Shown piece by piece: positions 7,265 to 18,660 of a stretch of 39,708 nt of DNA. Numbering within the stretch: the first letter of the stretch is position 1; each line of letters opens with the position of its first letter. The notes below the pieces were generated by a model. That model saw only the letters and a program-made list of their open reading frames with translations, ran no database searches and was not told where the DNA came from. Made by a program: the position numbers and the translations under genes. Source of the stretch: Aeromonas molluscorum 848 (GTDB taxonomy: Bacteria; Pseudomonadota; Gammaproteobacteria; Enterobacterales; Aeromonadaceae); assembly GCF_000388115.1 (NCBI RefSeq), contig NZ_AQGQ01000016.1, positions 1 through 39,708 of the forward strand. The letters are read 5' to 3'.

Positions 7265-7365
7265 GAATATTTTTTCTTTTATTTACAGTTAGATATAAAA
7301 GTCACCTCCAAACCTCGCCGCAAAAGTTAGCATTTTTAACCAATCTAAATGGCGAAAATAACCAA

Positions 7366-7395
7366 TAAAAAAGGGAGCCAGCGGCTCCCTTTTTT
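7366..7395 (-). terminator. Bidirectional terminator downstream of plsC
   Basis: GGGAGCC-AGC-GGCTCCC forms a 7-bp stem flanked by an A-run on one side and a T-run on the other, so it can work on both strands. It lies 17 bases after the stop of the minus-strand acyltransferase gene and is its obvious terminator. Confidence 0.85.
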
Positions 7396-7411
7396 ACATG
7401 ATGGCACCCGA

Positions 7412-8140
7412 TCAGGCGGCGCTATCCCGCTCGATGGCCGCATCCAGCTCGACCAGTTTGGCGCTCATCTGCTCGCGGCAGTGCTCGGCCAGCTCGCGGA
7501 TCCCGGCAGCGCCATGCTCCTTGCTGCACAGGGGAGGCAACATCTCGAGACGCACCTCGCCATTGTCCCAGCGATTGAGATCTATCTGGCCGAAATAACT
7601 GGAACAGACGATGGGCACCACTGGCACCTCCGCCTGCACCGCGGTATGGAAGGCACCCGCCTTGAACGGCAGCAGGCCACGGCCCTGGGAACGGGTCCCC
7701 TCTGGGAACATCCAGATGGAGGTGCCGCGACGTTTGATGCGATCCACCACCTGGCCTATGGTGCCAATGGCACGGGAGCTGTTGGAGCGGTCGATCAGCA
7801 CATTGCCCGACAGCCAGAAGATGAGGCCGAAGAAGGGCAGCCACAGCAGGCTCTTCTTGCCCACCGCCACCACGCCGGGGCGCACGGCACCGGTCACGGT
7901 GAAGATGTCGAAGTTGCTCTGATGGTTGCAGATGTAGACGGCGGGGCCGACATGCTTCACTTCATCCGGGATGGTCAAGGTCACCTTGACGCCGATCAGC
8001 GGGCAAACGGCATGGTACATGCGAGCGAAGACGTAGACATTGTTGGCATGGCCGGGACGCACCAGACAGAGCAGCAAAGCCAGGATGAACCAGACGACAA
8101 GCAGCAGGCCAAGCAGCAGAATACGGGCAAATTTGAGCAT
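7412..8140 (-). CDS. plsC: 1-acyl-sn-glycerol-3-phosphate acyltransferase (PlsC type)
   Basis: PlsC makes phosphatidic acid by adding the second acyl chain to lysophosphatidic acid at the inner membrane. The 242-residue protein has an N-terminal membrane anchor (about 4-27), the catalytic HX4D motif NHQSNFD (His73, Asp78) and the FPEGTR motif (145-150) that binds the glycerol phosphate, at the usual length. Paralogous acyltransferases share these motifs, but the HQSxxD and FPEGTRS wording suits PlsC itself. It has its own terminator downstream and a divergent membrane-protein gene upstream. Confidence 0.88.
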   Translation of the reverse strand: MLKFARILLLGLLLVVWFILALLLCLVRPGHANNVYVFARMYHAVCPLIGVKVTLTIPDEVKHVGPAVYICNHQSNFDIFTVTGAVRPGVVAVGKKSLLWLPFFGLIFWLSGNVLIDRSNSSRAIGTIGQVVDRIKRRGTSIWMFPEGTRSQGRGLLPFKAGAFHTAVQAEVPVVPIVCSSYFGQIDLNRWDNGEVRLEMLPPLCSKEHGAAGIRELAEHCREQMSAKLVELDAAIERDSAA

Positions 8141-8282
8141 CGAACACCTCTAGACAAGATTCGGCGCAGTATACTGAGGCCGCTTTGGGTGAACAAGTGT
8201 TAGCCAAACAAAACCGGGCCGGGATGACGGCATGGCCCTGCCGCCCTGCTCCCTACCGCGCTCCACTTGTCTGTTTGACACC

Positions 8283-8743: not shown

Positions 8744-8794
8744 GTTATCCGCCACTTTAGACGGATCCCAACTTATTTATTGCGAGACACATCA

Positions 8795-10837
8795 ATGACT
8801 AGATTGATCAAAACGGCGCTGCTGCTGGTCTGCCTTGGCTGGCAGGCGATGGCTATCGCCGCTGATAGCGGCTGGCTGACCAGCGCGCAAAACGACCATG
8901 CCCGTGTACGGCTGCAAGGGGATTTCAGCAACCCGGTCCAGAGCCGCCTGTTGCTCGAGGTCGAACTCGAATCCGGCTGGAAGAGTTATTGGCGCAGCCC
9001 GGGGCAGGGGGGCATAGCACCCCAGATCCTCTGGCAACACGAAGCACCAACCCAGGTCCAATGGCACTGGCCGACCCCAAAGCGTTTCGAGGTCGCCGGG
9101 CTCAGCACCCAGGGTTACCAGGGGGACGTCCGCTTCCCCATGACCCTGAATGCGCCGAAAGGCAGCACCTTGAGCGGCATACTGCGCCTCTCCACCTGCA
9201 GCAATGTCTGCATACTGACCGACTTCCCCTTCCAGCTGGTACTTGCTGACGCAGCCCCTGCGGGCTTTGACTTTGCTTATGCCCAAGCCATGAGCACCCT
9301 GCCCCAGGCGATGGCGAGCGACATCCAGCTAACGGCCGGGTATGGCGCCAATGAGTTGCAACTGGTTGCCGAGCGCCCCCAGGGCTGGCAGCAGCCGGCC
9401 ATCTTCCTCGACGGTCAGGCAGAGGCCGAGTTTGGCGAGCCCAAGCTGCGGGTCGAAGGCCAGCGCCTGGTGGCCCGCATTCCGGTCAGCGATGGCTGGC
9501 AAGGGGATGCCCCGGATCTCAAAGGGAGACTACAGGGCTTACTGCTGGTCGATGGCGAGCAAGCCTGGCAGGGAGAGACGTCCATCAATGCCCCCCTGGC
9601 GCTGCCAGCGGCCGGGTCTGACAGTGGTCACTCGCTACTCTGGCTGATCGGCACCGCGCTGCTCGGTGGCCTCATTCTTAATCTGATGCCCTGCGTACTG
9701 CCGGTGCTGGCCCTCAAGTTGGGTTCCATCCTGCAACTGGAGACGCGAGCACGTCGTCCCATCCGTCTGCAGTTTCTGGCCGCCAGTGCCGGGATCCTGG
9801 TCTCCTTCTGGGCATTGGCCCTCATGAGCACCTTGCTGCGCGCCACCCAGGGTGCCGTCGGCTGGGGTATCCAGTTCCAGAGTGTCTGGTTTATCGGCTT
9901 CATGGTGATGGTCACCCTGCTGTTTTGCGCCAACTTACTGGGATTGTTCGAGTTTCGCCTGCCAAGCCGCCTCAGTACCCGACTCGCCACCACGGGTGAC
10001 AACAGCCTCGGCGGCCACTTCCTGCAGGGCAGCTTTGCCACCCTGCTGGCAACCCCTTGTTCGGCGCCCTTCCTCGGCACTGCGGTCGCCTTTGCTCTCG
10101 GGGCGCCCCTGGGTCAGCTCTGGCTCATCTTCACCGCCCTGGGTATCGGCATGAGCCTGCCCTGGCTCGCCATCGCCGTCTGGCCCAGCCTCGCACTCTG
10201 GCTGCCAAAACCCGGCCCCTGGATGGGGCGACTGCGCATGCTGCTCGGCCTGATGATGCTGGGTTCCAGCCTCTGGCTGCTGAGCCTGCTCTCTGCCCAC
10301 CTCGGCAGCCTGACCACCGGCTGGCTGATGGCCGCTGTGCTGCTGGCACTGCTGGTCGCCATCGGTTGGCGCCATGGCGTGCGTGGCTTCACCCTGACCC
10401 TGGCGCTCTCTGCCCTGATTGGTGGCGCCCTGCTGCTCGGCGGCGCCCTCACGGCGCCAAATACCCCCCAGAGGGAGACGGTGCAGTGGTTACCCCTGTC
10501 GGAATCGGCGCTGCAACAGGCTCTGACCGATAACAAGCGGGTCTTCATTGATGTCACCGCAGACTGGTGTGTGACCTGTAAGGCCAATAAATACAATGTG
10601 TTGCTACGAGATGAGGTGCAAAGCGCCCTCTCGGCACCGGATGTGGTTGCCCTGCGGGGTGACTGGACCCGGCCCAACGACAGCCTGGCCGCCTTCCTGC
10701 GCGCCCGAGGCGCCGTGGCCGTGCCCTTCAACCAGATTTACGGCCCCGGCCTGCCCAAGGGAGAGGTGCTCTCCCCCTTGCTCGACAAAGCCGATCTGCT
10801 CACCACCTTGCACAAGGCTGGCACTACTCGCTTCTAA
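8795..10837 (+). CDS. scsB: ScsB, DsbD-like thiol:disulfide reductase
   Basis: ScsB carries electrons from cytoplasmic thioredoxin across the inner membrane to periplasmic partners such as ScsC. The 680-residue protein has a signal peptide (about 1-25) and a periplasmic DsbD-alpha-like region with CSNVC (Cys135, Cys139). The polytopic DsbD-beta domain has redox cysteines in MPCVLP (Cys300) and TPCSAP (Cys422). A C-terminal thioredoxin-like domain has WCVTC (591-595). All three cysteine pairs needed for relay are present. The ATG at 8795 is used; an upstream TTG at 8780 is unlikely. It is followed after 10 bases by scsC, so the operon order is scsB-scsC-scsD. Confidence 0.92.
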   Translation: MTRLIKTALLLVCLGWQAMAIAADSGWLTSAQNDHARVRLQGDFSNPVQSRLLLEVELESGWKSYWRSPGQGGIAPQILWQHEAPTQVQWHWPTPKRFEVAGLSTQGYQGDVRFPMTLNAPKGSTLSGILRLSTCSNVCILTDFPFQLVLADAAPAGFDFAYAQAMSTLPQAMASDIQLTAGYGANELQLVAERPQGWQQPAIFLDGQAEAEFGEPKLRVEGQRLVARIPVSDGWQGDAPDLKGRLQGLLLVDGEQAWQGETSINAPLALPAAGSDSGHSLLWLIGTALLGGLILNLMPCVLPVLALKLGSILQLETRARRPIRLQFLAASAGILVSFWALALMSTLLRATQGAVGWGIQFQSVWFIGFMVMVTLLFCANLLGLFEFRLPSRLSTRLATTGDNSLGGHFLQGSFATLLATPCSAPFLGTAVAFALGAPLGQLWLIFTALGIGMSLPWLAIAVWPSLALWLPKPGPWMGRLRMLLGLMMLGSSLWLLSLLSAHLGSLTTGWLMAAVLLALLVAIGWRHGVRGFTLTLALSALIGGALLLGGALTAPNTPQRETVQWLPLSESALQQALTDNKRVFIDVTADWCVTCKANKYNVLLRDEVQSALSAPDVVALRGDWTRPNDSLAAFLRARGAVAVPFNQIYGPGLPKGEVLSPLLDKADLLTTLHKAGTTRF

Positions 10838-10847
10838 GGAAAACTTG

Positions 10848-11582
10848 ATGAAACCGACCCTGATCACCCTGACCCTGCTCGGCGCCCTGTCCACCCTGGC
10901 CCCCAGCCTGCATGCCGCCCCCTTCACCCCGGAGCAGGAGGCCCGTATCAAGGAGCTGATCCGCGAGACGCTGGTGGCCAACCCGAAGATCCTCGATGAG
11001 GCGGCCGACGCCTGGGAGAAGCAGAACACGGCGGATCAAGCCGCCCAGCTTGGCAACATCATAATAAGCAACCAGCAAGCGCTGTTCATGAGCCCCACCA
11101 GCCCGCGCCTGGGGGCCAAGCATCCCAAGCTGACCCTGATCTCCTTCACCGATTACAACTGCCCTTACTGCAAACAGTTCGATCCGCACCTGACCCGTCT
11201 GCTCAAGGAGCATCCGGATCTCGGTCTGGTGATCAAGCTGCTGCCCTTCAAGGGGCAAACGTCCGCCAAAGCGGCCCAGTACAGCCTGACCCTGTGGCAA
11301 CAGGATCCGGCTCGCTTCCTCCCACTCCATGAAAAGTTGATGAGCAAGCAGGGCATGTTGACCGAGACGGACATCAACAAGGCGCTGGCCGCCACCGGCA
11401 ATGTGGCTCTCAAACCAGAAGACAAGGCGACCGAGGAGCTGCGCACCAGCCTGCGCCTGGGCACCTTGCTCGGCGTGCAGGGCACACCGGCCACCCTGAT
11501 TGGCAGCCAGCTGGTGCCGGGAGCCATCTCCTATGACGAACTCGAGCGCCTGGTGAAGGCCGAGTTGGCCAAACAGAGCTGA
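10848..11582 (+). CDS. scsC: ScsC, DsbA/DsbG-like periplasmic thiol-disulfide protein
   Basis: ScsC is a periplasmic thioredoxin-fold isomerase or copper-binding reductase kept reduced by ScsB. The 244-residue protein has a signal peptide (cleavage near LHA-AP, 21-24). An N-terminal helical stalk follows (about 27-80), like the one that trimerises Proteus ScsC. The thioredoxin fold carries the active site CPYC (105-108), and the cis-proline loop is GTPAT near the end. The ATG at 10848 follows AAGGAAA, ten bases after scsB. The 3' end looks altered: a 150-base structured insertion separates the present stop from what appears to be the original overlap with scsD. Confidence 0.92.
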   Translation: MKPTLITLTLLGALSTLAPSLHAAPFTPEQEARIKELIRETLVANPKILDEAADAWEKQNTADQAAQLGNIIISNQQALFMSPTSPRLGAKHPKLTLISFTDYNCPYCKQFDPHLTRLLKEHPDLGLVIKLLPFKGQTSAKAAQYSLTLWQQDPARFLPLHEKLMSKQGMLTETDINKALAATGNVALKPEDKATEELRTSLRLGTLLGVQGTPATLIGSQLVPGAISYDELERLVKAELAKQS

Positions 11583-11744
11583 TCGCGGATGCTGCGCTCG
11601 GAGAGCGCGGCATCCGGCACTTGGCTCGGCATGCAAGGCGCTCTCTATACAAGACGACCAAGGTTGAGGAGAGCGCATCTCCCAGCAAGCGCTGCAGCGC
11701 CCCTTGTTGCCGAGCTGACCAAACAGGAAGAAGAGACACCATGA
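11559..11744 (+). repeat. Palindrome-rich 150-base insertion with flanking direct repeats
   Basis: Copies of an 18-base sequence (GCCGAGYTGRCCAAACAG, two differences) start at 11559, the end of scsC, and at 11709, just before scsD. They are exactly 150 bases apart and in the same reading frame. Reading on from the second copy gives an alternative scsC ending that stops at TGA 11742-11744, overlapping the scsD ATG as ATGA. The DNA between holds several GCGCTC/GAGCGC inverted motifs: hairpins at 11588-11614 and 11638-11676, and the palindrome GCGCTGCAGCGC at 11689. This looks like a small insertion or duplication that broke an original scsC-scsD stop/start overlap. Confidence 0.55.
11588..11614. 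repeat. Strong hairpin after scsC
   Basis: GATGCTGCGCTC and GAGCGCGGCATC pair over 12 positions (one G-T wobble) around a three-base loop, six bases after the scsC stop. No U-run follows, so it is more likely a processing or stabilising element than a terminator. It belongs to the insertion between scsC and scsD. Confidence 0.6.
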
Positions 11745-12262
11745 CAGACGCTGTGAAAAAGAGGGCACGCTGGCGGCGTTGGGGCAAAGAGGCGCTCTGG
11801 CTGCTGTTGTTTGCCGTTATCATCTCCACCGCGCTGGACTTCTGGCGCGGCCCGGCCCTGCCAGAAGGGAGCCCACTGCCAACGCTGATATTGAGCGATG
11901 GCAGTCACGCCGATCTGCTGACCCTTAGCCGGGACAAGCCGCTGCTGGTCTACTACTGGGCAAGCTGGTGCGGCGTGTGCCGCTTCACCACCCCGACGGT
12001 GGAGCAGATGTGGCAAGAGGGTGACAATGTGCTGACGGTGGCACTGCGCTCGGGCAACGATGAGCAGCTGCGCCGCGGTATGACCAAGAAGGGACTGAGC
12101 TTCCCGACCCATAACGACGAGCAGGGCACACTCGCCGCCCGTTGGCAGGTCGGCGTCACCCCCAGCTTCCTGATCCTCAAGGATGGCAAGGTGGTCGGCA
12201 CCACCACCGGCTGGAGCAGTCGCTGGGGATTGAAGCTCCGGCTGCTGTGGGCAAGCTGGTAA
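11741..12262 (+). CDS. scsD: ScsD, membrane-anchored thioredoxin-like protein
   Basis: ScsD is a TlpA/ResA-type thioredoxin tethered to the outside of the inner membrane. It acts in the Scs redox system linked to copper and oxidative tolerance. The 173-residue protein has a basic N-terminus, one membrane anchor (about 18-32), a periplasmic thioredoxin domain with YYWASWCGVC (active site 76-80), and the cis-proline loop GVTPSFLIL. The ATG at 11741 follows AGGAAGAAGAG. It ends the operon before a strong terminator at 12275. Confidence 0.9.
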   Translation: MTDAVKKRARWRRWGKEALWLLLFAVIISTALDFWRGPALPEGSPLPTLILSDGSHADLLTLSRDKPLLVYYWASWCGVCRFTTPTVEQMWQEGDNVLTVALRSGNDEQLRRGMTKKGLSFPTHNDEQGTLAARWQVGVTPSFLILKDGKVVGTTTGWSSRWGLKLRLLWASW

Positions 12263-12326: not shown

Positions 12327-12746
12327 TTATTGCGCCGCAGGCATGGCCCCAGCGCCTAGCCTGGCTTTGGCGTTGGCCCGTTCGGTTTCATCGCTCACGC
12401 CATCACCGTTCTGATCCAGACGGGTAAAGAGGGTTTCATGACGCGCCATGAACTGTTCCTTGGTGATGTCTTGCATGGGTTGTCTCTTGCCCACGCGCCC
12501 CGGCATGACCTTGCCTGAGTGCTTCATCCTATCTTGCATCCTGACCATAGCAGCCTCCCTTTCGGCAACCGACAAGATGCCATCACCATTGCTGTCCTGG
12601 CGGGTGAAACGCTGCCCGGCTCTGTCCATGAACTGGGCCTTGGTGAGGTCCCCCTTGATAAGCACCAGGGGCTCATCGAAGAACTCATCGGCGACGACGG
12701 CGAGGCCGCCCAGCAAAGCCAGAGGCAGAAGATAAAGTTTGAACAT
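12327..12746 (-). CDS. Secreted EF-hand protein
   Basis: This 139-residue protein has a hydrophobic N-terminus typical of a signal peptide (about 1-19). It has two canonical EF-hand calcium loops, DSNGDGILSVAE (51-62) and DQNGDGVSDETE (111-122). Each loop is preceded by a similar helix (LTKAQFMDR...FTR and ITKEQFMAR...FTR), so the protein is an internal duplication of a 60-residue unit. It should be a periplasmic or exported calcium-binding protein. It is convergent with scsD; a link with the redox locus is possible but unproven. Confidence 0.82.
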   Translation of the reverse strand: MFKLYLLPLALLGGLAVVADEFFDEPLVLIKGDLTKAQFMDRAGQRFTRQDSNGDGILSVAEREAAMVRMQDRMKHSGKVMPGRVGKRQPMQDITKEQFMARHETLFTRLDQNGDGVSDETERANAKARLGAGAMPAAQ

Positions 12747-13112
12747 GGCTGTTTATTCCTTTTGATGGCCTCGGTCTTGCCGAGTCCTGATGAGGATCGC
12801 CAGGGCAGGCCCCTTGTCACATGCACACCCGGTCCAGCGATGTGGCACCGGGGCGAATGCACTATCCACCCGCCACAGGTACCCTCTGTCAGGGTAGTCC
12901 CCATGGCGGGATGCCCCTCCCGGGTGCTGCCGGACCGGAATATAGAGGACCGATACCAGCTCACGGCAAACTCATTTGGCGGATCACATCCTATTCATGG
13001 CAGAGCGGCGCTATTTCCGTTAAAATGACGGGTTTTTCGCCGTACCTGGTTTTCTCCGCCCAACCAGGGCCAGCATTGTGACTTCTCTGTTGCCAGTGAG
13101 GCAGGATCTGCC
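12747..13112. promoter_or_regulatory. Divergent intergenic region, EF-hand gene / J-domain operon
   Basis: These 366 bases without a gene separate two divergent units, so promoters for both should lie here. An inverted repeat ACCCT-CTGTC-AGGGT at 12881-12895 is a possible operator. A -10-like TAAAAT lies at 13021-13026, about 90 bases before the J-domain gene, but no good -35 is spaced for it. No small open frame is convincing. Confidence 0.4.
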
Positions 13113-13397
13113 ATGAACAACTACTTTCGGGTGCTGGGTGTAAAATCCAACGCCAACGAAAACGACATCAAAAAAGCCTATCGACGACTGTCGAACCAGT
13201 ATCACCCCGACAAGCTGCTCGGGGCCACCGAAGAAGAACAAGCGCGCGCAGCCGTCTTGCTGCAACAGGTGAAACAGGCCTACGAGGTTCTTTCGGACCC
13301 CAAGAAAAAGGCCGCCTTCATCAAGGACTTTAACAACGTCATTGTGACCGACCCGACCTCTGCCATGCAGGAGTTATGGGATCAATTCTATCCCTGA
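13113..13397 (+). CDS. Short J-domain (DnaJ-like) protein
   Basis: This 94-residue protein is essentially only a J domain: helix I YFRVLGV, helix II DIKKAYRRLSNQY, the HPD tripeptide (31-33) that stimulates Hsp70 ATPase, and helix III EQARAAVLLQQVKQAYEVLSD. There is no Gly/Phe linker, zinc finger or substrate-binding domain. A 25-residue tail ends MQELWDQFYP. It would act as a dedicated DnaK co-chaperone whose specificity comes from partners. It heads a tight four-gene unit with three unrecognised proteins; the next gene starts six bases after its stop. Confidence 0.9.
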   Translation: MNNYFRVLGVKSNANENDIKKAYRRLSNQYHPDKLLGATEEEQARAAVLLQQVKQAYEVLSDPKKKAAFIKDFNNVIVTDPTSAMQELWDQFYP

Positions 13398-13403
13398 GGC
13401 TGT

Positions 13404-13931
13404 ATGAAAAAGACATTGGATCTGGCGCGTATCAAGGCGCTGATGAGTGACGCCAGCGAGAACATCGAATCCTACCGTGATGTGGACCAGCCCAAGGCGC
13501 TGGAACAATTCACCGGCAAGATGAAAGCGCTACTGCTGGCCGACATGAGCATGCTGGAGTTCATGCCCGAATACCTGCCGCTGGCCCTCTATGGCCGGGT
13601 GCAGTTTTCTGTCCAGGCCAAGCCGGCCTGGCGCAACTGGATCGGCCAAGGCGAGCAGCCCAGCTGGGACGAATTCAAGACGTCCGTGGCCTTCAACAAC
13701 GCCGACCTGCCCCTGGTCAAGGCAGTGCGAGCCCAGAGCGAAGATACCCTTATCGAAGCCTGCGCCGTGCTCTATCTGCTGGACAATCCCCTGCCCCGCG
13801 GCGCCCGTGATGACGACTACGCCATGCCCCGCGATGAAGACGAGGACGAGGGAGAAAACGCCGACGCTGACTACGACGGCGGCGAGGATGAAGAAGGCGA
13901 GCAGGATATGTACAACGAAGTGCGTTTCTAA
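13404..13931 (+). CDS. Unrecognised protein with highly acidic tail
   Basis: This 175-residue cytoplasmic protein, second in the J-domain operon, is not recognised. Residues 1-130 are mixed helical with no signal peptide or membrane segment. The last 45 or so residues are extremely acidic (runs such as DEDEDEGEN and GEDEEGEQD) and probably disordered, ending MYNEVRF. Such tails can mimic nucleic acid or contact basic partners or chaperones. The ATG lies six bases after the J-domain stop, implying co-translation. Confidence 0.8.
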
Positions 13932-13954
13932 TTTGAAGCAACTTGGGGTAAAGA

Positions 13955-14716
13955 ATGAATAGTCTGATTGAAATTGCCGCCATCGAGATCAAAGAACTGG
14001 CCGTGATCGAGCCCAAGCAGGCCAGCGAGAAATTCGAGCTGATCGCCATGACAATGTCCGACGATCAGTTGGCTGAAGTCATTGAAAATATTGATATCGT
14101 CACCCTGACCCAGATCAACGGCCAGCATGACATTTCCTTCCCGTCCATCATCTCCGAGCTGATGACTCCGGAGCGGATCCGCGACATCGTCTGCCAGCAG
14201 CCGCTCTACTGGGAAGAGGCCATCAAGAACAATGCCGAAGAGCTGCAACAGCACACCTTCGACTTCCTCAACTACCTGATCCGCACCCAGGAGAGCGAGG
14301 CCAAGCAGCGCGAGATCCTGGAGTGCATCGCCGAGGATCCGGCTGGCCTCTTCTACCTCGCCATCCCCTTCATCGAGTTCTATCGCGGTGAGCAGCTTGA
14401 CGACGAGGATGGGGTGCCGGATCTGCTGCACGCCGAAGAAGAAGATCTGGAAGAGGCGCTCTCCTACAGCGATCGTCAGCTGAGCGAGAATGCCCATGAC
14501 TACTCCCTCGACGATCCGCGCAGCTTGCTGATGCTGATCCGCCAGCAGGCTCCCGAGGTGGAGCAGGCCATCAAAGCCCTGCTACGCAACGAGAACAGCA
14601 GCTGGGATGGCATCATCAACAAGTTTGCCGCCGAGCTGGTGATGCAGGCCAAAGACAAGAACCAGGTCAGCGACGAGTACAGCGAAGTGGACGACATGTT
14701 CAGCTTTCTGGATTAA
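13955..14716 (+). CDS. Unrecognised helical protein of the J-domain operon
   Basis: This 253-residue soluble protein is acidic and predicted largely helical, with no signal peptide or membrane segment, and is not recognised. The N-terminal 120 residues contain repeated short helical units (for example MSDDQLAEVIENID and LMTPERIRDIV). A Glu/Asp-rich stretch follows (about 148-172) and it ends DDMFSFLD. It starts 23 bases after the previous gene and ends 11 bases before the next, firmly placing it in the operon. Confidence 0.8.
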   Translation: MNSLIEIAAIEIKELAVIEPKQASEKFELIAMTMSDDQLAEVIENIDIVTLTQINGQHDISFPSIISELMTPERIRDIVCQQPLYWEEAIKNNAEELQQHTFDFLNYLIRTQESEAKQREILECIAEDPAGLFYLAIPFIEFYRGEQLDDEDGVPDLLHAEEEDLEEALSYSDRQLSENAHDYSLDDPRSLLMLIRQQAPEVEQAIKALLRNENSSWDGIINKFAAELVMQAKDKNQVSDEYSEVDDMFSFLD

Positions 14717-14727
14717 GGGGCGCTTCG

Positions 14728-15645
14728 ATGTCACAGGTAACGCAGCTAGTCATACGCGAGTCCAATCAGGGCCCCTTCCTCAGTCAGGTGCTGCGTTTTG
14801 GCACTGACAGTGAACGCTTGAGCACCCAGCAGCTGGCCGCCATCAAAGGCAAGGCCGTGTTGATGAGCCTGAAGTTCGCCGACAAGTACTACAACAAGTA
14901 CAAGATGCATCTGCTGGAACAAGCCGCCCACGATGTCATTGGCGTGGTCAGCCTGGGGTTGCAGGAGCTCTCCCAGCGGGACGCCGCCAAGGCACTGGCC
15001 CTGCTACAAGCACCGGAAGGCCCCATCAAGCCGTTCCAGAAGGGCTGGTCCATGCTGATCTCGGTCAGTCCCAAGCCGCTGGGCAGCAACAACCTCTTTG
15101 GCGACGTGGATGCCCGTCTGCTCGATAAAATATCCAGCCCGCCGGATGTGGAAGAGTGGCAAGGGTGGCAGGAGTACGAGAAGGCGCTGGTGGAGCATAA
15201 CAAGGCCCGCCTGATGAGCCTGATTGATCAACACTTCTTCGCCTGCGAGAACGATCACCCCACCATGGAAGACAAGCTGGCCGAAGCCCTGCTCTACCGC
15301 ATCCTCTGTGGCCAGGGCAGCGGCACGGCGCCATTGAAGGTGAAGCAGGATCTCAAACGCCGTCTGGCGCGAGACATCGTGCTGCAAGAGGCCTGGTATG
15401 ATACCGACTATCTGGCCGCCCAGCTGGATCTGATGCTGACCGAGCTGCCGGGCGAGTTGATCGCCGGCCTGCGCCAGGAGCTCAGCCGGGGTTTTGTCAG
15501 CAACCTGCTGCACACACTGGGTTTTGTGCGCCAATACCAGCAGTTGCAGCAAGAGGGGGCCTCGCCGGAGAAGCTCGACAACATGGAGATGCGTGCCGGT
15601 CTCAAGCATCCCCTGCTCGGCTGGCCCCTCTACCACGACTTCTAG
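14728..15645 (+). CDS. Unrecognised protein, last gene of the J-domain operon
   Basis: This 305-residue soluble protein is predicted mostly helical, with no signal peptide or membrane segments, and is not recognised. Notable stretches are KFADKYYNKYKMHLLEQ (about 49-66), a central acidic-aromatic region (WQGWQEYEKALVEHN) and the helical end GFVRQYQQLQQ. It starts 11 bases after the preceding stop. A GC-rich hairpin 25 bases after its stop (15674-15692) probably closes the transcript. Confidence 0.8.
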   Translation: MSQVTQLVIRESNQGPFLSQVLRFGTDSERLSTQQLAAIKGKAVLMSLKFADKYYNKYKMHLLEQAAHDVIGVVSLGLQELSQRDAAKALALLQAPEGPIKPFQKGWSMLISVSPKPLGSNNLFGDVDARLLDKISSPPDVEEWQGWQEYEKALVEHNKARLMSLIDQHFFACENDHPTMEDKLAEALLYRILCGQGSGTAPLKVKQDLKRRLARDIVLQEAWYDTDYLAAQLDLMLTELPGELIAGLRQELSRGFVSNLLHTLGFVRQYQQLQQEGASPEKLDNMEMRAGLKHPLLGWPLYHDF

Positions 15646-16383: not shown

Positions 16384-16665
16384 GTGAGCAGAAAACCCGA
16401 CCGTATTACCGCGATGCAGCAGATCATCGACGCCGTGAAGGCGGAATTTCCGATCTATCAACCGGATACCTTCAAATGCGGGCCAGACAATAGCTGCATC
16501 GGCTGCCCCAAGAAGCTGATGGAGCTGGTCGACACTGACTTATCCTATTGGCAATATCAGATAGGTCGCGGTATCGCGCCCAGCTTCGACGAGATTTATC
16601 GCTTCGGCAAGATGTGCAAAAACATCCGTCGAGCACTGGTGAAAAGTGGCCGCATTCCCGCCTGA
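16384..16665 (+). CDS. Small cysteine-motif protein of unknown function
   Basis: This 93-residue cytoplasmic protein starts at GTG 16384 and is preceded by an AGGGAAG stretch. Four cysteines stand out: C32-x5-C38-x2-C41 and C78 (in KMCKN), a pattern suited to a zinc or iron-sulfur site. The remainder is mixed, with a basic C-terminus. I do not recognise a named family. It is flanked by the osmB hairpin repeat and an unlinked small gene. Confidence 0.7.
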   Translation: MSRKPDRITAMQQIIDAVKAEFPIYQPDTFKCGPDNSCIGCPKKLMELVDTDLSYWQYQIGRGIAPSFDEIYRFGKMCKNIRRALVKSGRIPA

Positions 16666-16849: not shown

Positions 16850-17224
16850 ATGACCCAAGAAAGGATCCAGACCCGATACCGGCTCGATGGCCCCCTTGCC
16901 ACTCCGGCCGAGTTGGAGCAGGCCACAGCCCGGGCAATAGAACACCACAAGCAGGACTTCTTCCCCCTGCTGGAGCGGCTGGTGGACGTGGGAGACAGTC
17001 GGGTCAAGCTCAGTCAGAAAGATCCGCTACGGGTACTGGGGGTGGAGCTCAATGGGGCTCTGACCGGTGGCAGCGCCCGCCTCAACTACGAATCTAATTT
17101 CGCCGAGAGCTGCCGCCTTATCGACGAATATGACCAGCACCAGACCAGCGTGCCCTTTCGCCTGGAAGGGGATGAGCTTCTCTTCGACCTTGAGCTGCCC
17201 ATAGCGTGGAATTTCAATAACTGA
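16850..17224 (+). CDS. Unrecognised small cytoplasmic protein
   Basis: This 124-residue protein has no signal peptide or membrane segment and is not recognised. It starts with a strong AGGAGG eight bases before the ATG, indicating good translation. Its sequence suggests a compact alpha/beta fold: an N-terminal basic-polar strand, a helix rich in Glu/Ala/His (ELEQATARAIEHHKQDFFPLLERL), and strands near the end. Codon use looks like the surrounding core genes. It is probably a single-gene unit closed by the hairpin at 17233. Confidence 0.7.
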   Translation: MTQERIQTRYRLDGPLATPAELEQATARAIEHHKQDFFPLLERLVDVGDSRVKLSQKDPLRVLGVELNGALTGGSARLNYESNFAESCRLIDEYDQHQTSVPFRLEGDELLFDLELPIAWNFNN

Positions 17225-17639: not shown

Positions 17640-18660
17640 CTAGTCGCTAGGCTGGTAACAACGCAGCTGACCACAATGCAGTGCAAACTGTTGGCGATGC
17701 TGATGGTCGCCTACCGCTCTGATACCCCGCCGCCGGAACAGAGTCACCTGTCGAAGCCAGACGGATTTATCAAGTCCTAGTCGTTCCATAATGGCAGCAA
17801 GGTGAACCGGTATGTGGCCGCGCTTGTCTGCTCTGATGGCGCGCCCTGTCCAATCGACCAGCATCAGATAATCGGTAAAGGCATAGGGCAAGCAGCCGGA
17901 CTTCTCCTTATCGGCAAACGCTAGCAACAGCGGGGGCAAGGCTTCAGCTAGGAGCGTATTATCAAGGCGTTGCTTGATACTTGTGTAGTCGCTCTGCTCT
18001 GGTCGGTCGGCAAGGGCTGCCCGCACCGGATTGAGATCTACATAAGTCATGCAAGCCAGCAAAGCTGATTCGGTGAGCAGCGCCTGACTTTTAAAGCGAC
18101 CTTCCCAGAAATGGCCCTTGCAGCCATCTTCCAGATTGGCCTGGCGAGCCAGAGTTTCATTGAGCAGCCGCACAAACCAGCTGATGGAGTAAAGCCGCTC
18201 GCGCCACTGCCCTATCAGTTGTTTAACCACTGCAATCTCAGGTTCAATCAGGGATTCCCCCTGATACCAGCGCCCCACCAATAGCGGCCATTGGAACAAG
18301 CCAGCCCAGCGCTCGGCCACCTCCCTTTCACTCCAGTTGGCGGCAGTATCGGGCTCAACCTTGAGCACCAGGTGGTAATGGTTGCTCATCACTGCATAGG
18401 CGCAGATGCCGATGGCAAACAGCCTCGACAGCTGGCCCAGCTTGTCGACCACCCACTGGCGCCGATGTTCGTAACTCTGGCCAGAATGGGTGTCTTCCCC
18501 ACACAAAAAAGCCCGCCGCACACAGCGACTGACCACGTGGTAGTAAGGCGTATCCTGCAAACTGATTTGACGTGAACGGGCAATGGTCATGGCGCATCCC
18601 TCGACAGTGACTCCTCAAGCCAAGTACAAGGTTACGCCGCTGTCAAAAAGGTGGGTGTCC
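17473..18660. mobile_element. RAYT element bounded by inverted repeats
   Basis: GGACACCCACCTTTTTGGACA at 17473-17493 is, apart from one extra G, the reverse complement of 18641-18660 (TGTCAAAAAGGTGGGTGTCC). The repeats enclose the Y1-type transposase gene at 17640-18590. The layout suits a REP-associated tyrosine transposase unit, and a further REP-like hairpin lies just outside at 18747. Whether it is still mobile cannot be judged. Confidence 0.7.
17640..18590 (-). CDS. REP-associated tyrosine transposase (Y1/HUH, RAYT)
   Basis: This 316-residue protein belongs to the single-strand-DNA HUH transposases related to IS200/IS605 TnpA. The metal-binding histidines are in NHYHLVL (71-73) and the likely catalytic tyrosine is Y183 in MTYVDLNPVRA. 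GHFWEGRFKSQ (about 159-169) is a typical family segment. The C-terminal extension of about 120 residues is as in RAYTs, which act on REP palindromes rather than a classic IS. It appears intact. It is bracketed by inverted repeats and lies in an accessory gap beside parC. Confidence 0.88.
   Translation of the reverse strand: MTIARSRQISLQDTPYYHVVSRCVRRAFLCGEDTHSGQSYEHRRQWVVDKLGQLSRLFAIGICAYAVMSNHYHLVLKVEPDTAANWSEREVAERWAGLFQWPLLVGRWYQGESLIEPEIAVVKQLIGQWRERLYSISWFVRLLNETLARQANLEDGCKGHFWEGRFKSQALLTESALLACMTYVDLNPVRAALADRPEQSDYTSIKQRLDNTLLAEALPPLLLAFADKEKSGCLPYAFTDYLMLVDWTGRAIRADKRGHIPVHLAAIMERLGLDKSVWLRQVTLFRRRGIRAVGDHQHRQQFALHCGQLRCYQPSD

Follow-up and report, generated by a model that had tools for sequence, protein, structure and literature searches.

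An Aeromonas molluscorum orthologue of the Shewanella atcJABC cold-adaptation operon, and a strongly diverged atcJABC-like gene set

Among described systems the closest is atcJABC of Shewanella oneidensis (SO_1850, SO_1849, SO_1848 and SO_1846), an operon named by Maillot et al. in 2019 (PMC6715715). In that species AtcJ is a 94-residue protein with an HPD tripeptide at residues 31–33 and a tail of 21 residues. The J domain can stand in for the one in DnaJ; it also stimulates DnaK, and the substitution H31Q almost abolishes this activity. At 7 °C growth is strongly impaired by deletion of atcJ, atcB or atcC and not by that of atcA; at 28 °C the atc mutants match the wild type. The affinity of AtcJ for AtcC is high (Kd 7 nM, and 80 nM for the tail peptide alone), the tail peptide raises the melting point of AtcC from 31 to 44.5 °C, and AtcC binds AtcB directly; for AtcA, no partner was detected. 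Synteny is kept across 80 genomes of Shewanella, Moritella and Aeromonas, and in 74/80 of them the gap between atcJ and the next gene is 8–24 bp (PMC6715715). A meeting report states that AtcB contacts RNA polymerase (PMC7871303). According to a 2023 workshop report, the Atc mechanism has yet to be elucidated; for the conservation of Atc in environmental proteobacteria it refers to Weber et al. 2023 (PMC10939069).

AtcJ resembles class C J-domain proteins in lacking the G/F, zinc-binding and C-terminal domains that class A DnaJ has. HscB, the J protein of iron-sulphur assembly, has its own client-binding domain. The HscB–IscU pair is like the Atc system in that a specialised J protein is encoded with its partner, an analogy drawn in the Discussion of PMC6715715; HscB works with HscA, whereas AtcJ, which carries no more than a short tail, acts with DnaK.

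Four genes of A. molluscorum 848 are almost certainly the Aeromonas atcJABC, orthologous to the S. oneidensis cold-adaptation operon. They lie at 13113–15645 of the window, by which we mean the whole 39,708-nucleotide stretch of contig NZ_AQGQ01000016.1 that was analysed. All four proteins match NCBIfam equivalog models above the curated cut-offs and are named AtcJ, AtcA, AtcB and AtcC by them. The first gene, atcJ (13113–13397), encodes a J-domain co-chaperone of 94 residues (NF050028, 174.6 bits, cut-off 150; the match spans model positions 1–93 of 93). It is followed by atcA (13404–13931), whose 175-residue product has an acidic C-terminal stretch (NF047888, 257.6 bits, cut-off 200), atcB (13955–14716; 253 residues; NF047889, 473.1, cut-off 440) and atcC (14728–15645; 305 residues; NF047890, 383.1, cut-off 370). 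Each gene starts with ATG, all are on the + strand, and the intergenic gaps are 6, 23 and 11 bases in the order J-A-B-C; the open reading frames thus bear out the arrangement, protein lengths and spacing given in the preliminary description of this DNA. Genes and order are those of S. oneidensis, as are the length of AtcJ, the position of its HPD and the length of its tail. The atcJ–atcA gap differs, at 120 bp in S. oneidensis (PMC6715715) versus 6 bases in the window, the latter just under the published 8–24 range.

The AtcB of the window shares 98% identity with its counterpart in A. rivuli DSM 22539 and 86–90% with the copies in the other 24 named Aeromonas loci found. Compared with canonical copies from families outside its own, identity is 63–77% for AtcB and about 47–54% for AtcC, the least conserved partner between the genus of the window and others. 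The genome contains one AtcB match and four J-domain matches, three of them over the Pfam cut-off.

Proteins 2–4 seemed unassignable because other libraries offer little for them. AtcA, AtcB and AtcC reach the cut-off of no Pfam family; in PHROG, AtcA and AtcB have no match, AtcC has one at E 0.16 and AtcJ has J-domain matches only; and PADLOC holds no family for any of the four proteins. The preliminary description had called three of the proteins unrecognised and had put the locus, one J protein with three proteins it could not assign, forward as a candidate for an undescribed system. The one observation on the side of that proposal is this absence of a Pfam family over its cut-off, or of a useful PHROG or PADLOC family, for proteins 2–4. 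The NCBIfam scan refutes it, with equivalog matches for four of four proteins and the published gene order, and we give it practically no credence. Because the operon, the cold phenotype and the chain of interactions have been in print since 2019 (PMC6715715), with Aeromonas named there, we dropped the candidate as an undescribed system; atcJABC, including its occurrence in Aeromonas, is already known. A defence or phage system was likewise rejected (no PADLOC family; in PHROG, only the J-domain matches of AtcJ and the AtcC match at E 0.16). Similarities to CTLH in AtcB (14.3 bits, Pfam cut-off 26) and to type III needle E in AtcC (15.7 bits, Pfam cut-off 22) were set aside as under threshold.

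The four genes are maintained as coding sequences. Between the window and the nearest relative found, an A. rivuli locus (L006), dN/dS is 0.05 for AtcJ (from 6 changes only), 0.08 for AtcA, 0.04 for AtcB and 0.15 for AtcC, and these values of 0.04–0.15, with conservation across loci, rule out chance open reading frames. Predicted isoelectric points are 7.9, 4.2, 4.1 and 5.9 for AtcJ, AtcA, AtcB and AtcC, respectively, so the earlier characterization of the last three proteins as acidic holds for AtcA and AtcB and only mildly for AtcC. One promoter-like site was found, at 12997–13026 (chance mean 1.4). Terminator-like sites number six (chance mean 2.9), and none of them is on the + strand downstream of atcC; we build nothing on either count.

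AtcJ has the organization expected of its published counterpart. PF00226 matches residues 3–69 (E 1.7e-19) and is the sole domain over cut-off, as the earlier reading of a J domain with intact HPD had anticipated; the PDB search matched J-domain structures over the J domain only. The protein ends 25 residues past this domain, which fits a class C J-domain protein, with no further DnaJ domain over cut-off. The HPD tripeptide (13203–13211, +; residues 31–33 by direct reading) corresponds to the DnaK-activating motif of S. oneidensis (PMC6715715). The last 21 residues (13332–13394, +), which had been overlooked when the protein was described as having no substrate-binding part, correspond to the published AtcC-binding site (PMC6715715) and by homology would form an AtcC-binding tail here. 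Counting the window's own copy (also present as L005) once, the HPD is present in 58/58 AtcJ copies, a tryptophan near the end of the tail in 58/58 and a tail "DP" in 56/58. These counts leave out L063, where AtcJ is cut by the contig end, and L057, a contig without AtcJ; one further genome with the operon (G266) is not among the fetched loci, and some species may occur in both of the collections from which the loci come.

AtcB carries a second conserved C-terminal element. Among 60 copies, the window included, D-[DE]-M-F lies within the last 12 residues in 60/60, and DDMFSFLD stands at the very end in 52/60; in the window this sequence occupies 14690–14713 (+). A structure model of AtcB, built like that of AtcC from a shallow alignment of 27 rows, is all-helical (mean pLDDT 70, pTM 0.69), with residues 236–253 under 50. 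Because the motif is conserved and the tail that carries it is poorly ordered, we treat DDMFSFLD as a candidate docking motif. The AtcC model is mostly helical and of low confidence (mean pLDDT 58, pTM 0.47), too low to support a fold search. Foldseek with the AtcB model returned no match at E 0.001 or better. VIA-align returned diverse helical proteins, the best at Z 8.1 over 70 residues (an annexin) and others including TOG domains and the MgtE cytosolic domain; these may reflect only a common arrangement of helices, and we claim no family from them. In profile searches of the PDB, neither AtcA nor AtcB had a hit below E 0.05, and the single match of AtcC, to Crov588 (E 0.0004), was set aside, as no stretch of it passed alone; we accept no relative of AtcA, AtcB or AtcC from these searches.

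The four genes occur together across the order. In a sample of 247 genomes searched at E 0.001 or better, AtcA, AtcB and AtcC each match 35/247 genomes and exceed the cut-off in 31/247, an identical set of genomes for all three. For AtcJ the search was limited to E 1e-22 or better so as to exclude other J domains; it exceeds its cut-off in 30/247, all within those 31; in the lone exception (G320) the contig begins 48 bases before atcA, which starts at base 49. The co-occurrence check that the preliminary description had called for thus favors it on this point, and its view of the genes as a functional unit is borne out by this joint distribution and by the published AtcJ–AtcC and AtcC–AtcB binding (PMC6715715). 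A class-wide draw, in which 1/219 genomes exceeds the cut-off of each family and is the window's own, carries little weight, since among the genomes listed there is a single other member of this order. In 217/219 class-wide genomes, including the window's own, there are J-domain matches under the AtcJ cut-off, which were not counted as AtcJ. About 4 kb past atcC in another genome (G286, contig C58, 26234–26350, +), a 69-codon frame contains a 39-position match to positions 233–271 of the AtcC model (E 6e-5), possibly an AtcC fragment or a chance similarity.

The operon is present in 11/13 of the same-genus genomes listed, and G372 and G447 are without all four genes. All four are also missing from 5/5 genomes listed for g192, another genus of the family; the operon is therefore dispensable in parts of the family. 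In G447, genes known from upstream of window atcJ, including ScsB-, ScsC- and ScsD-like ones, occur in the absence of the four. In G372, a single 14-kb stretch holds genes that flank the window's operon on either side and none of the four atc genes; it has no Scs-like genes either, so the gap is wider than the operon.

A ScsC-like gene lies upstream of the operon in 20/25 named Aeromonas loci, and in four loci (L015, L016, L026 and L029) none of seven tested flanking proteins is present. Beside copies outside the genus no flanking protein was found, which is a weak test because most of these loci extend only about 0.6 kb past the operon. In the window, three thiol-redox genes on the + strand (8780–12262) encode a DsbD-like protein, a protein with ScsC N-terminal and DsbA domains and a thioredoxin-like protein; this trio looks like scsBCD. 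An open reading frame at 12327–12746 (−) has two DxNGDG-type stretches, presumably EF-hand-like, with no Pfam family at E 0.001, and lies upstream of atcJ in many, not all, other Aeromonas loci. Another, at 17640–18590 (−), resembles REP-associated tyrosine transposases at scores under the curated cut-offs of both libraries. Three further frames on the + strand (7349–8203, 16384–16665 and 16850–17224) have no Pfam or NCBIfam family at E 0.001 and are still conserved in other Aeromonas loci or same-genus genomes.

The best explanation of the locus as a whole is an atcJABC orthologue acting as a DnaK-targeting chain (probability about 0.9). By homology, the J domain of AtcJ would engage and stimulate DnaK, its last 21 residues would dock on AtcC, and AtcC would in turn hold AtcB. 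With AtcJ on AtcC and AtcC holding AtcB, DnaK would therefore be brought to whatever AtcB binds. Orthology makes it highly probable that the Aeromonas copy has the same chain of interactions as S. oneidensis. In favor of the explanation are the four equivalog matches, the published gene order with short gaps, the joint occurrence of the genes and the conserved HPD and tail tryptophan of AtcJ; the low conservation of AtcC between genera, the absence of the operon from parts of the family and an atcJ–atcA gap just under the published range weigh against it. The expectation that a J domain needs partners, and that its neighbors are likely ones, agrees with the published AtcJ–AtcC and AtcC–AtcB binding; it applies to AtcC and AtcB and not to AtcA, for which PMC6715715 reports neither a detected partner nor a cold phenotype. 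RNA polymerase would be the best candidate for the AtcB target, and the chain would then be a device that directs DnaK so as to keep transcription working in the cold. One sentence of a meeting report (PMC7871303) bears on this point, and we regard RNA polymerase as the functional target at even odds.

The published biophysics can also be read with AtcC or AtcB as the DnaK client, AtcJ handing over a cold-labile AtcC–AtcB pair for folding, much as in HscB/IscU, instead of directing DnaK to a third party. AtcC melts at 31 °C alone and at about 44 °C with AtcJ or the tail, and the authors include substrate transfer among their hypotheses; they also consider an affinity of 7 nM unusually tight for a co-chaperone and its substrate (PMC6715715), and the reported contact of AtcB with RNA polymerase (PMC7871303) also argues against this reading. 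We consider this arrangement unlikely, if the most serious competitor to the targeting chain. Less likely again is that Aeromonas has the same protein network in a general role that is not specific to cold. Expression in S. oneidensis is nearly flat from 7 to 37 °C and its authors allow an alternative role, which would suit such a function; the wild-type-like growth of the mutants at 28 °C and their impairment at 7 °C speak for a role in the cold (PMC6715715).

A strongly diverged atcJABC-like gene set is present in 4/247 genomes of the order-wide sample (G296, G328, G369 and G411), which belong to two other genera of the order; its AtcA, AtcB and AtcC matches score far under the cut-offs. The operons lie at 2807–5322 of L061, 1473–3962 of L062 and 2741–5309 of L064; the fourth, in L063, is partial, its J gene running off the contig. 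The three loci have the same J-A-B-C order with wider intergenic gaps (54–120 bases) and J proteins of 86–88 residues (for L064, counted from a chosen internal ATG, the listed frame being 111 aa from a TTG). Identity to the window in these three aligned loci is 18–19% for AtcC, 29–31% for AtcB and 17–19% for AtcA. NCBIfam, run on two of the four loci, gives AtcJ scores of 62.8 and 65.0 bits (cut-off 150), and generic DnaJ models score higher. The diverged J proteins end in LITDP...W, resembling the AtcJ tail. Retained in the branch as a whole are the J domain followed by a T-D-P...W tail, the N-terminal part of AtcC, and, in AtcB, most of the N-terminal part together with the D-D-M-F tail.

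Our tentative reading, which we think clearly less likely to be right than wrong, is that this is a second atcJABC branch, and that the features common to both branches mark working contacts: the AtcJ tail with the N-terminal part of AtcC, and the AtcB tail with its target, possibly RNA polymerase. If this is true, the target-binding site of AtcB would be a short C-terminal motif and directly testable. For questions about atcJABC in general, the field of search is made smaller by the diverged branch and by the conserved tail of AtcB.
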